IMG/VR virus record: IMGVR_UViG_3300027509_000022
Coordinates: 1 to 41,387 of that record
Length of the DNA stretch: 41,387 bases
Source of the DNA: a virus
Strand: one strand, 5' to 3'
The notes under the pieces were generated by a model. That model was not told the DNA's origin, ran no database searches, and saw only the letters and a list, made by a program, of their open reading frames with translations. Each line of letters opens with the position of its first letter. Within the stretch, counting starts at the first letter, position 1. The translations under genes and the position numbers were made by a program. Below, one piece after another: positions 4,928 through 21,780 of this stretch.

Positions 4928-6538
4928 TTAAACCATGTAAGAACCAAACGATGAATCGTCGTGCTCATCCTGAATATCGCTGGTTCCCCAAACGCCTGTA
5001 TCGTCTTTCTTGTCTTCTTCAGGGGGGATGTCCTCAGACGGTTCCCATGGATTCATGTACGGCAGCATTGAAACTGTGTCGATGCAGTCGTCTTTGCCTT
5101 TTAACCCATCCTTGGTGGCCAAGGCAATCTGACCCAGGAAAATGCCCAGCTCTTTGGAAAGCTTCATCTCTTCAGCAAAATAGATTTTGCTTGTCTTGAA
5201 GTAGGGTACGACCATGTTAAATCGAGCAAGCTTATCGGTGGTGGGACGAATCCCCGCACTCCCATTGTGCTGGGTCAGAGGGAAATACACGCCCCTGTTG
5301 TCCATCTCCATAAGAAGCCAATCCACGAAGCCCCCCTGTTGGCCTGTGGTCTCTACTCCGACCCCTTGAGGGTCATACTCTCCTACCAGCCTGAACAGAT
5401 CGTTGATGGTCAGGTTCATGCCCTGACGCTCGACCACACCATCTACCCATGTCCACTTTTTGTCTTTGTCATAGGCCCAGACCGAGAGCACAGAATAATC
5501 TGCTGTCTGCTTCGACGAGGTGGCAAAATCTGTCGTGATATAGAAGTTGTACTTGTACTTGTTCTGGAGGATCTCTGATCTCTTTCTCCAGAGGATCTCT
5601 TTGTCCTGAACCAGCTTGCTTTCCTCGCTGGTAATCCTGAGCATCAGTTCCTGCCGGAAAGATTTCTCTTTTCCTTCTTTCACAGCATCGTCGTACTTTT
5701 CTTTCACATAGTCGAAATTGAACCTGTCTTCCCAAGCTCCCTGAAACTCGGATCTCTCGCACGGAAATCGCTCACAGACCGGGAACACGTTCACATCCCA
5801 GGATCCTGATTCAATGGCTTCGTAAACGATGTCCTCTTTGTTGAAAGGTGTCCCGTTCAGGATCATCTTGTACCGGGTCGGATCGAGAGCATACTGGACC
5901 CCGGAATAGACTGTGTCTTTGATGGCATCCATAGCGGTCTTGGATTTGGAATCAGCATCTGAAACCAAGTCATCCATGACGGCCAGCGTTGGGCGCTTGT
6001 TGAAAATCTTCGTCCCACGAATACCGGACTTGGCACCAAACATCTTGATGCCAAACTTGTGGCCGGACCTGTTTTGGAACTCGATATAGTTTTCAGTGAA
6101 GTGTGCGTGAGGCACCCAATGTTGCATGAACTCGGAATTATCATACCTGAACTGCATAGAGTTCTTGGCAGACTTCACACCGTTGTCCATTGAATCCGAG
6201 ATATAAAGCATCCCGTTGATCTTGCCGAAATTAGGAATCTTTCCAAACACAGCAATATACAGAGCAAGATACTCAATAAAGATCGAAGTTTTACCTGACC
6301 CACGAAAGCACAGATTGGCGATCTTTTTCTTCTTGTTTGCAATCTTGTCCAGCATAGACAAGTGCATCACAGGGGTTTTGTTATCTTCCCCCATGTCACC
6401 ATTTACCAGCTTAATGAAATTCATAAATTTCAGGGCAAACTCTGTTGGCACATAACCAACAGAGCCATTCAGCGCCATGAGATCTACTTCATTAAGATAG
6501 TCATCAACTGTGCTTTCAGTTGGGGCCATGTCCAACAT
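4928..6538 (-). CDS. terL: Terminase large subunit, N4 gp68-like
   Basis: 536 residues, the normal length for N4-like TerL. The N-terminal packaging ATPase has a Walker A motif CFRGSGKTS at 77-85, a Walker B TLAVMDD at 184-190 and a coupling motif ILNGTPF near 227-232. The C-terminal RNase H-like nuclease has acidic centres at TTDFA (Asp337), GVETTG (Glu395) and KDDCIDT (about 482-488). It would cut concatemers and pump DNA into proheads through the portal encoded nearby. The ATG overlaps the TGA of the upstream gene by one base, so the two are translationally coupled. Confidence 0.93.
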   Translation of the reverse strand: MLDMAPTESTVDDYLNEVDLMALNGSVGYVPTEFALKFMNFIKLVNGDMGEDNKTPVMHLSMLDKIANKKKKIANLCFRGSGKTSIFIEYLALYIAVFGKIPNFGKINGMLYISDSMDNGVKSAKNSMQFRYDNSEFMQHWVPHAHFTENYIEFQNRSGHKFGIKMFGAKSGIRGTKIFNKRPTLAVMDDLVSDADSKSKTAMDAIKDTVYSGVQYALDPTRYKMILNGTPFNKEDIVYEAIESGSWDVNVFPVCERFPCERSEFQGAWEDRFNFDYVKEKYDDAVKEGKEKSFRQELMLRITSEESKLVQDKEILWRKRSEILQNKYKYNFYITTDFATSSKQTADYSVLSVWAYDKDKKWTWVDGVVERQGMNLTINDLFRLVGEYDPQGVGVETTGQQGGFVDWLLMEMDNRGVYFPLTQHNGSAGIRPTTDKLARFNMVVPYFKTSKIYFAEEMKLSKELGIFLGQIALATKDGLKGKDDCIDTVSMLPYMNPWEPSEDIPPEEDKKDDTGVWGTSDIQDEHDDSSFGSYMV

Positions 6539-13390: not shown

Positions 13391-13396
13391 GATATC

Positions 13397-13485
13397 TATA
13401 TATGTAACGACAGAGGTGAAAAATAGTAGTGTGCAGAAGCACAAAATTTTAGTGCATGAGATTTATATAATTAACGTCAGAGGTG
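13397..13485. repeat. Pair of 22-bp direct repeats, TATATA-N3-AACG-N-CAGAGGTG
   Basis: Copies at 13397-13418 and 13464-13485 agree at 19 of 22 positions and are 67 bp apart. Both combine a TATATA box with TAACG and CAGAGGTG. They lie in the divergent region between the leftward small gene and the first early hairpin. They could be phage promoters or operators, reading in either direction; no polymerase specificity can be assigned from sequence alone. Confidence 0.5.
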
Positions 13486-13546
13486 GGGGGTTCTGTCTGG
13501 GTGGCCACCTTCACCAAACCCACCCCCCCGGCTCATTACACATTCA

Positions 13547-13560
13547 GGGGCTAACGCCCC
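13547..13560 (+). promoter_or_regulatory. Early hairpin 1 (TAAC loop), candidate virion-RNAP promoter
   Basis: GGGGC-TAAC-GCCCC forms a 5-bp stem with a 4-nt loop, 47 bp before the first early gene. It is followed by CTATGAGTT. Three related stem-loops with different stem sequence but the same C-TAAC-G core occur in intergenic DNA at 13974, 15127 and 15996. N4 virion RNAP is known to recognise short promoter hairpins. Confidence 0.6.
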
Positions 13561-13607
13561 CTATGAGTTAATCATGACTCACATACCATACCAGGAGCAC
13601 TCACATC

Positions 13608-13886
13608 ATGGGTCCATTCGCATTCATCAGCACCATCTTCGTCTCCATCTCTGACTTCATCACCAGCATGAGCAACTACTCCAAGGTCATCGAAGATCAC
13701 AGCCAACGCACATATGCATCCTCCAAGCTCGCAGGCTCTGCAAAAACCCGTACCGAGATCAAAGAGAAGATCGCCATGTACGACAAGCGTACCAAGAAGC
13801 TCAGCAAGACCAACGTAGACTCCGAGCAAGTCGACAAAGACTTCGAATCCATCATGAACAACTTCACATCCACCGAAGAAGAATAA
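13608..13886 (+). CDS. First early gene, hypothetical protein
   Basis: 92 residues. A hydrophobic N-terminus (MGPFAFISTIFVSISDFI) could be a membrane-associated helix; the rest is strongly charged and helical (KTRTEIKEKIAMYDKRTKKL), ending in acidic residues. AGGAG precedes the ATG. It stands alone between early hairpin 1 and a terminator, so it is probably a short, abundant early transcript. Function unknown; early small proteins of this kind often act on host machinery. Confidence 0.75.
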   Translation: MGPFAFISTIFVSISDFITSMSNYSKVIEDHSQRTYASSKLAGSAKTRTEIKEKIAMYDKRTKKLSKTNVDSEQVDKDFESIMNNFTSTEEE

Positions 13887-13926
13887 GCTACAGCCTCACA
13901 GGGAAACCTGTGGGGTCAGCTTTTTT
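13885..13926 (+). terminator. Terminator with GAAA tetraloop after the first early gene
   Basis: CCTCACAGG-GAAA-CCTGTGGGG forms a 9-bp stem with one G-U pair. An outer AAGCT/AGCTT pairing and six T follow. The AAGCT arm overlaps the stop codon of the upstream gene. Confidence 0.85.
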
Positions 13927-13973
13927 ACACATACACATAAGATAGAGAGAGTACATCTCTATACTATAGTAGA

Positions 13974-13989
13974 GGAGGCTAACGCCTCC
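13974..13989 (+). promoter_or_regulatory. Early hairpin 2 (TAAC loop), candidate virion-RNAP promoter
   Basis: GGAGGC-TAAC-GCCTCC is a perfect 6-bp stem with the same C-TAAC-G core as hairpin 1 but different stem bases on both sides, that is, compensatory variation. It is followed by AATGACAAG and precedes the 14.07-15.08 kb group of small genes. Confidence 0.62.
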
Positions 13990-14066
13990 AATGACAAGAT
14001 CACTACATTCTCACCAACATGCTACAACTTTGCACTATCAACATCCCTCTCATCTGGACACCAATC

Positions 14067-14243
14067 ATGACCACATCACCACGGGATACAGACTCAACAC
14101 TATCCTCCAAACCTGATGATCCAATCATCGTTCAAGCTACCAATCGCAGATTATCTATTGATCGGGCGATTTTAACTTTCCAAGAAGATCTTGAGAAAGA
14201 GAAATCTAAATCTTTAATTGAGAGGGTCGGGAACAAAACGTAA
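14067..14243 (+). CDS. Doubtful small early protein
   Basis: 58 residues beginning MTTSPRDTDS, in the same frame as a longer reading from 14019. No good ribosome-binding site is visible at either ATG, and composition is Ser/Asp/Lys-rich with a charged helical C-terminus. It fills the space between early hairpin 2 and the lipoprotein gene on the expected strand, which is the main reason to list it. Confidence 0.4.
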   Translation: MTTSPRDTDSTLSSKPDDPIIVQATNRRLSIDRAILTFQEDLEKEKSKSLIERVGNKT

Positions 14244-14286
14244 ACAATTCATCAACTCTTAAACCAGGAAAGAAGAGATCATCACC

Positions 14287-14547
14287 ATGATCATCGCTCT
14301 CACCATCATCGCTTTCGTCTTCATCACCGGCTGCTTTTACAAGCCTCCAACACCTGAGCAACAGGCTCAGGCTGATGCTGAGCTTCAGGCATATACCGAC
14401 AAGGTAGCTCGTAAGACCCAGCTCAACATCGACCGCAAACTTGCTGATTATGCTCGTCACAGCAAAGCTCTCGGCTCCCGTTGTAACATCATCAACATCC
14501 GTAAAGATGTCGATGCCATGTATGCTGAAATGCAGAAAAGAAAGTAG
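14287..14547 (+). CDS. Small predicted lipoprotein
   Basis: 86 residues. A hydrophobic stretch (MIIALTIIAFVFITGC) ends in a lipobox-like FITGC with Cys16, followed by a Pro/Gln/Ala-rich helical region. It would be anchored to a membrane through the lipidated Cys; location and early expression would fit superinfection exclusion or envelope modification, but that is a guess. GAAGAG lies upstream of the ATG. Confidence 0.65.
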   Translation: MIIALTIIAFVFITGCFYKPPTPEQQAQADAELQAYTDKVARKTQLNIDRKLADYARHSKALGSRCNIINIRKDVDAMYAEMQKRK

Positions 14548-14557
14548 AAACAATACC

Positions 14558-14794
14558 ATGCTCATCCTCGCATTCATCGTCCTCATCGCTTACTGCCTCA
14601 TCAAAACTCACCTCGAACAGAAGGATCATAGGCCCGCTGATAGACCTCAGAAGCCTGCCAATATCACCATCCCTGAACAGCTGGATGATCTTGCTCGTCG
14701 AGAGCAAGCTCTCCGTGATGACCCTGAGACAGACATCAACCTTGATCAGATCGATCAAGACTTTGATGCTGCTCTCGCATCTCTCCGTAGATAG
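14558..14794 (+). CDS. Small membrane-anchored protein
   Basis: 78 residues starting MLILAFIVLIAYCLIK, one N-terminal transmembrane helix, then a hydrophilic cytoplasmic or periplasmic tail with Asp/Glu/Arg-rich helices (LDDLARREQALRDD). Begins 10 nt after the lipoprotein gene, probably co-transcribed. No family recognised. Confidence 0.65.
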   Translation: MLILAFIVLIAYCLIKTHLEQKDHRPADRPQKPANITIPEQLDDLARREQALRDDPETDINLDQIDQDFDAALASLRR

Positions 14795-14803
14795 GATATC
14801 AAC

Positions 14804-14956
14804 ATGCTCACTGAAACACTTGATCTCACTGAACTCTTCAAGTTCCCTGAATCTGAAGTTGAGGCTCCTGTCCCAACTTCCTGCTCTCCATATCTCCTGA
14901 TCGAGTATCCCAAGACCTACAGCTGGAACACCATGCTCGCAGAGGATTGGGCATGA
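14804..14956 (+). CDS. Short hypothetical protein
   Basis: 50 residues beginning MLTETLDLTELFKFPE and ending EDWA. AGGAT lies before the ATG, and the stop TGA overlaps the next ATG as ATGA. The tight coupling to its neighbours supports translation although the protein is too short to classify. Confidence 0.55.
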   Translation: MLTETLDLTELFKFPESEVEAPVPTSCSPYLLIEYPKTYSWNTMLAEDWA

Positions 14957-15078
14957 TCGTCGAGCGTTGGTACGAGCGGTTGTTCAACTTGTTGTTCAAC
15001 CATGATCAACATCTCCGGGATCAGAGGCTCCGTAAGGAACTTGCTGATGCCCGCAAATTATCCCAGAAATCTGAATGA
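14953..15078 (+). CDS. Very short hypothetical protein
   Basis: 41 residues beginning MIVERWYERLFNLL, amphipathic and basic, helical throughout. Its ATG overlaps the preceding TGA. Listed for coupling and position; no function can be assigned. Confidence 0.5.
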   Translation: MIVERWYERLFNLLFNHDQHLRDQRLRKELADARKLSQKSE

Positions 15079-15126
15079 TATCTGGAACTTCTGTAAATTG
15101 CTGAACTATCTGTCTTAACTGAGAGA

Positions 15127-15140
15127 GGCGCTAACGCGCC
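15127..15140 (+). promoter_or_regulatory. Early hairpin 3 (TAAC loop), candidate virion-RNAP promoter
   Basis: GGCGC-TAAC-GCGCC, a 5-bp stem with the conserved core, followed by CTATGCGTT much as hairpin 1 is followed by CTATGAGTT. It is 62 bp upstream of the strongly terminated gene at 15203. Confidence 0.62.
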
Positions 15141-15202
15141 CTATGCGTTTCAATCAAGAGACGCTGAAACCAACATACTGTTCTCTGAAAGGAACTATCA
15201 CC

Positions 15203-15670
15203 ATGGCACGTAACCGTAAAAACAACGACGTTCTGAACACCGCTGGCCGTACCCGTGGCGGCTCTTCGAAAACTTCGAACCAGAGCAACCAGCGTACCGG
15301 CACCGATCGCAACGGCAACGAGTTCATCAAGGATGACTTCTGGATGAACATCGGCTTCAACCTCGAAGTCGTCGGAGAAGACGGTGAGACCACCACCGAG
15401 TTCTTCCGCCTCGCCAAGGGCATCCCTCTGTCCGCGTTCGAGCGTATGACCACCTATCCGAACACCTCGGACAAGCAGAAGACCCGTATCGCTCGCCACA
15501 ACGCCATCATCGACGCTCTGCACGTTCAGGGCGACAAGCTCGAAGACGGCGAAGGCAAGACCGTCAAGCTCTCCGTGAGCATGTATAAGGTCCAGGCCGA
15601 GGTCTCCGAAGACGATGCATCCGGCGATACCAAGTCGGCTGAAGAGCTGGCCGACGAACTCTTCGGCTAA
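15203..15670 (+). CDS. Early monocistronic protein, possibly nucleic-acid binding
   Basis: 155 residues. A basic, Arg/Lys/Ser/Asn-rich N-terminus (about 1-36) precedes a compact domain (FWMNIGFNLEVVGEDG, about 47-62 onward), and the C-terminus is an acidic tail ending DELFG. The basic arm, beta-rich core and acidic tail recall single-stranded DNA-binding proteins, but I see no defining motif. Codon use is strikingly GC-ending compared with the small genes before it, suggesting high expression. It has its own hairpin (15127) and terminator (15680). AAGGAAC precedes the ATG; an upstream in-frame ATG at 15143 lacks one. Confidence 0.75.
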   Translation: MARNRKNNDVLNTAGRTRGGSSKTSNQSNQRTGTDRNGNEFIKDDFWMNIGFNLEVVGEDGETTTEFFRLAKGIPLSAFERMTTYPNTSDKQKTRIARHNAIIDALHVQGDKLEDGEGKTVKLSVSMYKVQAEVSEDDASGDTKSAEELADELFG

Positions 15671-15679
15671 GATACCAAG

Positions 15680-15715
15680 ATGCCCAATCACCTAATCAGG
15701 TGGTTGGGCATTTTT
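15680..15715 (+). terminator. Strong intrinsic terminator
   Basis: A 14-bp stem (ATGCCCAATCACCT / AGGTGGTTGGGCAT, one G-U) with loop AATC and five T. It ends the 15203 transcript. Confidence 0.9.
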
Positions 15716-15783
15716 AGTTCAATAGATAGAACAGCTTAGTTCTCTTTTGGCGTCTTCCCAAGCAAGCTCAAGGAGTTCAAATT

Positions 15784-15939
15784 ATGGATAATAAAGTTAA
15801 CTGGCCAGATGACTGGATCCAGGATCTGATCGACAACCCTCCAGATCATAGACACTTCGAACAGCTGTTCCTTCAGGAGACATACCTGCTGGAATCAGAG
15901 ATTCTGGGAGATGAGAACAAAGTTCATATTGAGGATTAA
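15784..15939 (+). CDS. Small acidic hypothetical protein
   Basis: 51 residues beginning MDNKVNWPDDWIQDL, Asp/Glu/Leu-rich. AAGGAG is 9 nt before the ATG. It stands alone between the terminator at 15680 and early hairpin 4. Confidence 0.6.
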   Translation: MDNKVNWPDDWIQDLIDNPPDHRHFEQLFLQETYLLESEILGDENKVHIED

Positions 15940-16140
15940 CTTAGTGTTCTGTTTGTTCTTGTCGTTGTTCCTGTTCTTATTGGTGGCACCGTTGCCCGCT
16001 AACGCGGCCTTCGGTGGCCTTCCGGGGGTTTTGAGAGTTAACTTGAGTTGAATCCTCCAAAGTTCAGACTGGATCCTAAAATCTCTATTCCATTCAACTT
16101 TGACTGGACGTAGACTTAATCCTAAGAAAGAGAAAGAAGT
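15940..16140 (+). promoter_or_regulatory. Noncoding leader with early hairpin 4 inside a larger stem
   Basis: CCGC-TAAC-GCGG at 15996-16007 repeats the C-TAAC-G core with only four base pairs. It is enclosed by ACCG/CGGT and GGC/GCC pairings (15985-16018), giving a longer interrupted stem followed by CCGGGGGTTTT. It may therefore be a terminator, a promoter hairpin or both. No gene seen in the rest, which runs to a GA-rich ribosome-binding site. Confidence 0.45.
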
Positions 16141-17374: not shown

Positions 17375-18835
17375 ATGGCACAGCTCAATGAGCCACTCAG
17401 CAACAAGAGAAAAGATATCACCGGACAAAAGTTCGGTAATCTCACTGCCATCATCTATACCCACAGCGATCAGTCTCGCCATTCGATGTGGGATTTCCTC
17501 TGCACCTGCGGTGATACATATAATGAGCGTATGAACACCGTCACAGGCCGCCATAGCAGCGGTAAATTCAACGCCTGTCCCAAGTGCATCACAGCTCATG
17601 CTGACGCTCAGGGAGGGCTACAGGCCCAAGAGAGAGCATTGCCCAAGCCTCCACTGGATTTGAAACTCAAGTCAGGTGTGAGACCTCAGCAGAAGCCCAA
17701 GGTCAAGAAGGTGAAAACAAAACCTTTTGTCAAGAAAGCTTCTGAGCTGGAACCAACGGTGTTCAACAAGCACCATGGTACTCCTCCAGCTGATGCTGTC
17801 TACATCGGCCGGGGATCACCCTATGGCAATCCATTTGTCATCGGCAAAGATGGCAACCGAGACGAAGTCTGCGATCGGTTCGAGAAAGAGATCCTTCCTG
17901 ATCTTGATCTCACGCCTCTCTATGGCAAAGATCTGGTCTGCTTCTGCTCACCTCAGCGATGCCATGGCGATGCTATCTTGGCCGAAGCCAAGAGACGCCA
18001 GACTCAGGGAGAAGAAGAAGATAAAGCTCAGAAGCCTGATCCCTACAAAGATAAGTTCTATGCTCAGGAACTGATCGAGAAGATGTATGACAAGGGCCAG
18101 ATCCTTGACATCCTCAAGGAAGAGTTCGCTTCGGTATCGGATGATCCATTCGAGAACGAAGCTCTCTGTCAGATTTATCTGCACAAGTATGCAGATGCTG
18201 AAACCATGGTGGGAATCCTCAGCCCCAAGCATGGCACTCCACAGGAGGTAGCTGACAAGCTGCTTGCTATGGTCGATGAGGACTTCATGGACCTCGACGA
18301 GCTAGGCCGGTTCTCTGTCATCTGGGAACCAGAAGAAGACACTGAAGCACGCCTCAGCAAGCTCCAGTATCCTCTGCCCATGATCGTCAAGCCGAACAAG
18401 CTCAGGAAGAACACTGACACCGGCTACATGACCATCTCCAAGTGTGCAGTCCTCAGTGGTGCCGACCACAGGTATGAGACGAAAGATCTCTGTCTCGATC
18501 ATCTGAACAGGATGAACTCCGTAGGTCTGGCAACAGACTGGGGAGTGGTGGAATCACCTGAAGCTGTATTCGTTCGACCGAAGCAGAAAGAAGATGAGAC
18601 CTCCAAAGAGTATCAGAAAAGAGTTCAGGCCGATCAGAAGTTCTATGACATGTCGATAGATGTGTTGGAGAAACTCGACTCGATCACGAACACTTTCTAC
18701 CTCACCCACCGATATGATTTCCGCGGCAGATCCTATGCCTCCGGCTATCATTGTAATACGCAAGGCGATGCCCTCCATAAGGCCGTTTTGCAATTCGCAA
18801 CAAAGGAGAAGATCACTGACTCAAAGAGTTCGTAA
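17375..18835 (+). CDS. RNA polymerase II, N-terminal subunit (N4 gp15-like), fused to zinc-ribbon and DUF4326-like domains
   Basis: 486 residues. About 15-71: a zinc-ribbon-like module starting DITGQKFGNLTAI with Cys43, 45, 68 and 71, resembling the N-terminus of the HNH-type protein at 22122. About 127-205: DUF4326-like domain, with VYIGRGSPYGNPFVIG and CFCSPQRCHGD. About 211-486: the N-terminal part of a single-subunit T7-like RNAP, ending with YDFRGRSYASGY (447-458), the T7 DWRGRVY motif, and LHKAVLQFATKEKI, matching T7 just before its GYYWLK segment. It lacks the catalytic palm, supplied by 20584-21780; N4 RNAPII is likewise a heterodimer. N4 gp15 is about 270 residues, so the first 210 are an extension. 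AGGAG lies 7 nt before the ATG; no good internal start is seen at the RNAP boundary. Confidence 0.85.
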   Translation: MAQLNEPLSNKRKDITGQKFGNLTAIIYTHSDQSRHSMWDFLCTCGDTYNERMNTVTGRHSSGKFNACPKCITAHADAQGGLQAQERALPKPPLDLKLKSGVRPQQKPKVKKVKTKPFVKKASELEPTVFNKHHGTPPADAVYIGRGSPYGNPFVIGKDGNRDEVCDRFEKEILPDLDLTPLYGKDLVCFCSPQRCHGDAILAEAKRRQTQGEEEDKAQKPDPYKDKFYAQELIEKMYDKGQILDILKEEFASVSDDPFENEALCQIYLHKYADAETMVGILSPKHGTPQEVADKLLAMVDEDFMDLDELGRFSVIWEPEEDTEARLSKLQYPLPMIVKPNKLRKNTDTGYMTISKCAVLSGADHRYETKDLCLDHLNRMNSVGLATDWGVVESPEAVFVRPKQKEDETSKEYQKRVQADQKFYDMSIDVLEKLDSITNTFYLTHRYDFRGRSYASGYHCNTQGDALHKAVLQFATKEKITDSKSS

Positions 18836-20583: not shown

Positions 20584-21780
20584 ATGTTTCAGACATTCAC
20601 CGGACTTGAATATCTCAAGATGGATATCGCAGCGAACCATAAGAAAGAATGCGAGAAGGCCAACTGGGACGATCGCATCCGTCATTTCTACCAGATGGGC
20701 GACCTGAGAGACGAAGCCAATGTGGCCCAGCTCTGTGAGGGTGCCAACAACCCAGTGGGTCTCAGGGCTGCTATCCTGGCCTATCAGGACACTCTGGCCG
20801 ACAAGGCCACTGGCTACATGATCTCGCTCGACGCTCACTGCTCGGTGCTCCAGATCCTCTCCCTGCTCATGTCCTGCGAAAAGAGCTTCAAGCTCTGCGG
20901 TGGTGACAGCGACAACCTGATCGATACCTACAGCCACATCTACGAGGCCATGGATCTCGAAGGCACCCAGATCGGCCGCAAGGCTCTGAAGGCTGCCATC
21001 ATGGAGTCCTGCTACGGATCGGACACGAAACCTGCCAAGGTCTTCGGAGACGACGAGGAGCGGTTCTACGAGATCATGGACGAAGAGATGCCGGGTGCAT
21101 GGTCACTCTCCGGGGATCTCGTGCTCATCTGGAATGACTTGGACACTCCAGGATACTCTTGGTTCCTGCCGGATAACTTCTATGCAGAAGCAAGAGTTAC
21201 CGAGATGGCTGAGGAAACCTTCGAGTTCATGGGGGAAACCAAGTCCATCATGGTTCATACCGATGAGCGAGCGGATTACCACAAGGGCTGTGCAGCCAAC
21301 ATTGTCCATTCCATTGATGGTTTCATCGTCAGGGAAATGTTCAGGCGCTGCATGTTCGATATGGATACTTTCTCCAAAGTCGTTGAATGTCTCAACGCTA
21401 CTGGAACAAACGGTAAACATGAACAGGCAGTCCAGACGCTCTGGGGCAACTATCTGGCATCAGGATTCCTGAGTGTTCGGATTCTCGACTATCTCGACGA
21501 AGGCACCATGGGTCTGGTAGATCCTCTGGTCATCGCTGAGCTGCTTCAGTCTCTGCCGGATGCACCGTTCGACATCGTGACAATCCATGATTGCTTCCGC
21601 TGTCATGCGAACAACGGCAACGACGTTCGACGCCAGTACAACAGAATTATGGCTGATATATCAGGCAGTAACATTCTGAAGTTCATTGTATCTGCCATCT
21701 TCAATGAGGAGATCAATGTGGCGAAGACCGGCACCATCGACCGAGCTACGATCGTGGATGCGAATTACATGATCGGTTGA
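20584..21780 (+). CDS. RNA polymerase II, catalytic C-terminal subunit (N4 gp16-like)
   Basis: 398 residues, close to N4 gp16 (about 404). It begins where the first subunit ends relative to T7 RNAP: EYLKMDIAANH matches the T7 GYYWLKIHGAN region. Motif A is SLDAHCSVLQ with Asp83 (T7 Asp537); motif B is RKALKAAIMESCYG with Arg132, Lys136, Tyr144 and Gly145 at exactly the T7 spacing (Arg627, Lys631, Tyr639, Gly640); NIVHSIDG at 239-246; motif C IHDCF with His335 and Asp336 (T7 Asp812). All catalytic residues are present, so with the N-terminal subunit it should be active. AGGAGA precedes its ATG, so it is translated separately. By N4 analogy it transcribes middle genes. Confidence 0.9.
   Translation: MFQTFTGLEYLKMDIAANHKKECEKANWDDRIRHFYQMGDLRDEANVAQLCEGANNPVGLRAAILAYQDTLADKATGYMISLDAHCSVLQILSLLMSCEKSFKLCGGDSDNLIDTYSHIYEAMDLEGTQIGRKALKAAIMESCYGSDTKPAKVFGDDEERFYEIMDEEMPGAWSLSGDLVLIWNDLDTPGYSWFLPDNFYAEARVTEMAEETFEFMGETKSIMVHTDERADYHKGCAANIVHSIDGFIVREMFRRCMFDMDTFSKVVECLNATGTNGKHEQAVQTLWGNYLASGFLSVRILDYLDEGTMGLVDPLVIAELLQSLPDAPFDIVTIHDCFRCHANNGNDVRRQYNRIMADISGSNILKFIVSAIFNEEINVAKTGTIDRATIVDANYMIG

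Follow-up and report, generated by a model that had tools for sequence, protein, structure and literature searches.

What would read four short hairpins, identical in their TAAC loop, that lie in early DNA of an N4-like phage? The hairpins lie in IMG/VR record IMGVR_UViG_3300027509_000022, a stretch of 41,387 nucleotides (nt) that was analysed at its full length (hereafter the window). PHROGs matches to the portal, the large terminase (TerL), RNAP1 and RNAP2, together with a gp2 homologue detected by BLAST, identify this 41-kb piece as part of an N4-like phage. The original prediction, made from the letters of the DNA, proposed the hairpins as candidate promoters of the virion RNA polymerase (vRNAP). 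Our comparisons indicate that they are very probably early promoters of this phage's vRNAP, in a form with a four-base loop. The sites are listed below.

13547-13565, + strand: site 1, hairpin GGGGC-TAAC-GCCCC (13547-13560), predicted +1 G at 13565; heads the open reading frame (ORF) at 13608-13886.
13974-13993, + strand: site 2, hairpin GGAGGC-TAAC-GCCTCC (13974-13989), predicted +1 G at 13993; leads a series of small ORFs that begins with 14019-14243 and 14287-14547.
15127-15145, + strand: site 3, hairpin GGCGC-TAAC-GCGCC (15127-15140), predicted +1 G at 15145; precedes the gp2 homologue, as P2 does in N4.
15996-16013, + strand: site 4, hairpin CCGC-TAAC-GCGG (15996-16007), predicted +1 G at 16013; the weakest, upstream of genes leading to RNAP1.

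All four hairpins were found where predicted, with compensating stems that vary by whole base-pair substitutions, and all are intergenic, lying between likely genes within 13.5-16.0 kb. The window contains exactly four copies of the core GCTAACGC (13550, 13978, 15130 and 15998, all on the + strand); the expectation is 0.39, and no shuffle gave four. Each copy forms the center of a perfect hairpin with its own stem of 4-6 bp. A search for stems of at least 4 bp with a G ten bases past the loop returned the same four sites and none on the - strand, versus 0.1 per shuffled window. It is extremely improbable that the hairpins reflect chance or base composition, as a short motif without function. 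The core motif alone is not rare, and when viral contigs were scanned loosely for GGCTAACGCC-N4-TTGG many matches appeared, but the window has about 40 times as many sites as shuffles predict, all on one strand and in intergenic early DNA. Their stems differ by paired changes, and the position at gp2 is common to relatives. The loose scan was dropped as background: the long-stem matches examined lay in coding frames of unrelated phages, and among the matches listed the only N4-like phage was RPP1, which is considered below.

How closely do the sites follow the rules of N4? Early promoters of N4 form a template-strand hairpin with a 5'C:G3' closing pair and a loop that begins with 5'G and ends with 3'A; N4 vRNAP recognises the -11 purine, -10G, -8G and +1C, and transcription starts eight bases past -8 (PMC4496689). 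We scanned for C-TNC-G and C-TNNC-G hairpins, using N4 P1, P2 and P3 as a positive control, and all three were recovered with a G at the same spacing. On the template strand, each hairpin of the window has the form stem-GC-[GTTA]-GC-stem. At each of the four sites a G+C-rich inverted repeat lies just upstream of +1, the template strand carries the 5'C:G3' closing pair, the loop 5'G (-10G), the 3'A and, within the GCTAACGC core, -8G, and a template C (G in the RNA) occurs at +1, ten bases past the loop. The C(T/A)ATG(A/C) sequence noted earlier after three hairpins is present at sites 1-3, where it corresponds to the region from -4 to +2, with the G of ATG at +1; TATG ahead of +1 at sites 1 and 3 resembles N4 P1 (TTATGG). 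Site 4 is shorter and embedded in a longer interrupted stem, as had been described, yet it too has a G at the +1 position. The sites also lie, as in N4, in the left-end early region that enters first, before gp2 and the RNAPII genes, with one promoter ahead of gp2 and all four upstream of RNAP1 and RNAP2.

The departure from N4 is in the loop. The window loop has four bases (GTTA on the template) with a TT apex, whereas N4 loops have three (GGA, GAA); there is no central -11 purine, and there are four sites versus three in N4. Under the strict published description, which specifies a 3-nt loop with a central purine, the window hairpins are non-members because they lack this feature. It is well supported that they are a loop-length (4-nt) variant of the N4 hairpin promoter and would work like vRNAP promoters. 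A four-base variant was part of the original prediction and holds, but its designation as a new specificity class is perhaps too strong; we prefer loop-length variant until the polymerase is tested, because N4 itself has the same closing pair, loop edges, -8G and +1, and 4-nt loops recur in several lineages.

The TAAC loop is also better described from the other strand, where the functional loop would be GTTA, forming a GNNA mini-hairpin. GNA and GNNA loops have both been reported as exceptionally stable DNA mini-hairpins (PMC4686876). With its G-C pairs, the template loop c-GTTA-g of the window falls in the GNNA group and the N4 loops are GNA, so the window template strand keeps the structural class of N4. 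The reported mini-hairpins are short synthetic DNA fragments, whereas those of the window would be natural promoters. Predicted DNA folding energies for sites 1-4 are -5.2, -6.0, -6.0 and -3.8 kcal/mol on the template (GTTA) strand and -4.8, -5.6, -5.6 and -3.4 kcal/mol on the TAAC strand, slightly favouring the template.

The same stems could instead act in RNA, as C-UAAC-G stem-loops of the + strand that serve as structures of the 5' untranslated region or as protein-binding or processing sites in transcripts from promoters further upstream. In RNA, UMAC loops are GNRA-like, all four hairpins are on the coding strand upstream of genes, and other roseophages have a second class of C-TNAC-G hairpins that lack promoter geometry. 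We nevertheless regard this explanation as unlikely. It leaves unexplained the fixed +10 G, the -8 base, and the N4-type TCC and TTC hairpins at the same place in relatives. Further, an Rfam scan of the window gave no match at the gathering score, and sigma-70-type promoters in the hairpin region were not above chance, which also favours vRNAP promoters. A tRNA scan was empty as well.

If the hairpins are vRNAP promoters, comparable elements should be sought in relatives, and we approached this in two ways. An unbiased count of hairpin loops over 80 IMG/VR loci around RNAP2 homologues identified C-TCC-G 69 times on the coding strand and 4 times on the opposite strand (59 with a G at +10), and C-TTC-G 30 versus 7 times (23 with a G at +10). 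Since N4 gp2 follows P2, we also used gp2 as an anchor. A gp2 homologue is present in 87 of 96 loci, giving 72 upstream regions after dereplication. Upstream of gp2, 3-nt C-TNC-G hairpins with the +10 G occur in 29/72 and 4-nt C-TNNC-G hairpins with the +10 G in 10/72; the opposite strand gave 1 and 2, and shuffles 0.12 and 0.08, respectively. These gp2-anchored hairpins bear out the expectation that position relative to early genes is conserved and, together with the N4 rules (loop length excepted) and the N4 P2 position of site 3, they support the proposal of vRNAP promoters.

The four-base loops differ by lineage: TAAC (the window and RLP1), TTAC, TCAC, TTCC and TGAC. The loop-length label changes at least five times on well-supported branches of the RNAP2 tree, and loops of four bases probably have several origins. 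Among the relatives, contig L037 carries the 4-nt set that looks most like promoters, with six C-TCAC-G hairpins that have the +10 G. Some roseophages (L013, L015, L016, L017 and L025) have no C-TN(N)C-G hairpin with the +10 G before gp2, so their early promoters differ in form or place. Hairpin promoters assigned to vRNAP have also been predicted in the early regions of other N4-like phages, LUZ7, LIT1 and PEV2 of Pseudomonas (PMC3715699) and CB1, CB3 and CB4 of Pectobacterium (PMC6027278), but only 3-nt loops were described for them.

The clearest exchange of loop length is between RLP1 (FR682616; the accession identifies loci L014 and L116 as RLP1) and R7L, which are sisters in the RNAP2 tree (100/99 support). 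In R7L, both gp2 and RNAP1 are preceded by TCC hairpins. The corresponding places in RLP1, before gp2 and before genes leading to RNAP1, carry GGGGC-TAAC-GCCCC-TCGTGG and GCGGC-TAAC-GCCGC-TCTTGG (hairpins at 364 and 1057 of FR682616), and a TCC hairpin was not found in RLP1. Because RLP1 has TAAC where R7L has TCC, the loop differs at an orthologous promoter while the +1 spacing is unchanged. RLP1 and its near-twin RPP1 (FR719956) share with the window the TAAC loops, -8G, the +10 G and both placements; they differ in having two sites rather than four and TCGTGG/TCTTGG downstream rather than CTATGA. For RLP1 and RPP1 the authors could not identify a promoter consensus (PMC4193335).

A second class of hairpins, mostly GATGC-TNAC-GCATC without the +10 G, was found ahead of the gp2 promoter region in several roseophages (L009:3707 and 4740, L010:1069, L007:1042, L011:6651 and L016:1511). 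These are perhaps terminators of the preceding gene. TAAC hairpins of R7L and DSS3phi2 were considered as promoters and dropped, as they lack the +10 G and lie 45-62 nt upstream of the TCC promoter.

Might sites 1-4 themselves be intrinsic terminators, or terminator-like stems of preceding genes? They are short, G+C-rich and intergenic, and C-TNAC-G hairpins of the R7L/DSS3phi2 type, placed before the gp2 promoter, could terminate the upstream gene. However, there is no T run directly after sites 1-4, and a terminator scan does not list them; the stems it does report lie immediately behind the genes of unit 1 and unit 3 (listed below). Terminators would also leave unexplained the fixed +1 G, the -8 base and the exchange with N4-type hairpins at gp2, and we consider this explanation exceedingly unlikely.

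Can the hairpins be linked to the polymerase itself? In N4, vRNAP R904 contacts -8G (PMC4496689). In an alignment of vRNAP domains, Arg at the position of N4 904 occurs only in phages with -8G at the gp2 hairpin: 19/27 with -8G have Arg versus 0/12 with -8C (Fisher 4.5e-5; 0.004 with one row per close group). RLP1 has R at 904 and -8G, and R7L has A and -8C. For the vRNAP of the window phage, -8G would predict Arg or Lys at this position. This agreement supports the predicted hairpins as the elements that vRNAP would read. Real DNA hairpins serving another factor, for example in replication, packaging or repression, would likewise preserve loop and pairing while stems vary, but the +1 spacing, early-gene placement and family agreement with residue 904 are specific to vRNAP transcription, making another factor very improbable. 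The -11 recognition element also differs, being FKQFKMIA in RLP1 and FRRFKAG in 3-nt roseophages. Because the vRNAP domains of RLP1 and R7L share only ~49% identity, this difference is no more than a lead; a tie of individual -11 residues to loop length is suggestive only, given few cases and weak alignment there.

Several observations weigh against vRNAP promoters in the window, or narrow what can be claimed for them. The central loop purine (-11), which vRNAP contacts in N4, has no counterpart in the window loops. A vRNAP gene was not seen among the long ORFs of the 41-kb fragment, and therefore enzyme and promoter cannot be paired for the window itself; vRNAP is present in 28/30 and 27/30 related records. 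Site 4, being short and within the longer stem, may fold differently. Counted in independent pairs, the agreement of 904 and -8 amounts to ~3.3 concordant and 0 discordant of 6, which is non-significant after correction for relatedness, the pairs being too few. Exact TAAC promoters occur in two lineages only, the window and RLP1/RPP1. Finally, C-TNAC-G hairpins without the +10 G occur 45-62 nt upstream of the gp2 promoter in several roseophages, and for this reason a TAAC loop alone is not diagnostic.

Taking vRNAP promoters as the preferred explanation, we infer extrusion, vRNAP binding and initiation by homology with N4. Host gyrase would supercoil the left end as it enters at injection, so that each inverted repeat extrudes. 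On the template (-) strand, stem-C-[GTTA]-G-stem would then fold into a mini-hairpin of great stability that belongs to the GNNA class (GNA in N4). The injected vRNAP would read -8G, the C:G pair that closes the loop, and the G and A at the loop edges, and could start RNA ten bases past the loop, at the G of 13565, 13993, 15145 and 16013. The transcripts would code for gp2, for small early proteins and probably for the subunits of RNAPII. The sole change relative to N4 would be at the loop apex, from one purine to two thymines.

More broadly, we think it reasonably likely that there is a family-wide hairpin code in which the apex has repeatedly switched between a GNA triloop and a GNNA tetraloop. 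Each switch would leave the closing pair, the +1 ruler and the G and A at the loop edges in place, and the -11 recognition element and specificity loop of vRNAP would change together with the apex. In this view the TAAC (GTTA) loops of the window and of RLP1/RPP1 would count as separate cases and provide natural polymerase-promoter pairs of altered specificity. The class of mechanism is known; the tetraloop variant, its recurrence and the RLP1/RPP1 promoters have no description in the open literature that was searched. Recognition of a promoter as a DNA hairpin has its textbook example in N4 vRNAP, and the consulted papers on such promoters count the 3-nt loop and central purine among the elements of the code. 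Where a natural loop of 4 nt occurs with all else kept, it suggests which contacts may be dispensable, and such loops may offer ready-made pairs for specificity tests. RLP1 and RPP1 gain candidate early promoters where none could be assigned. For metagenomic N4-like phages, a simple rule may serve to annotate early transcription: C-TN(N)C-G, a paired stem, and a G ten bases on.

The rightward early region starts near 13.5 kb of the window. Its other elements, and the genes that place the phage, are as follows.

345-2660, - strand: portal (PHROGs).
4928-6538, - strand: large terminase, TerL (PHROGs).
13608-13886, + strand: small early ORF, 92 amino acids; no PHROGs or Pfam match.
13893-13925, + strand: terminator-like stem (scanned stem 13893-13916) and T run, which would end the site 1 unit (terminator scan).
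15203-15670, + strand: homologue of gp2, the middle RNA polymerase cofactor of N4 (30% identity to N4 gp2, E 1.7e-12; PHROG 4099; gp2 profile E 1e-32).
15682-15715, + strand: terminator-like stem (GCCCAATCACCTAATCAGGTGGTTGGGC, core 15691-15708) and T run after gp2 (terminator scan).
17375-18835, + strand: RNAP1 (N4 gp15) homologue with a DUF4326-containing N-terminal extension (PHROGs, Pfam).
20584-21780, + strand: RNAP2 (N4 gp16) homologue (PHROGs).

Terminator-like matches are near chance in number (6 found versus 4.2 expected). The window also encodes an N4 gp24-type ATPase. The RNAP2 tree places the window as a basal branch of the roseophage clade (100/100 support), and the closest sequence is 50% identical. 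Single-protein searches of IMG/VR with the window gp2 and RNAP2 gave no match, and alignment-based searches were needed. In RNAP1, DUF4326 spans residues 134-202 (Pfam E 1.5e-18), with an additional weak HNH-type match. DUF4326 (gp12) and RNAP1 (gp15) are two genes in N4 and are fused in the window RNAP1.

Two repeats were identified near the start of the early region. A 28-nt direct repeat (TATATA..TAACGNCAGAGGTG, 82% identical) occurs at 13391-13418 and 13458-13485, between divergent genes just upstream of site 1, and is possibly another type of promoter or a control element. A G+C-rich imperfect inverted repeat (GAGGTGGGGGGTT.../...AACCCACCCCCCC) at 13480-13534 separates the early region from the leftward lysis/tail genes; it may act as a terminator or as a mark of the genome end.

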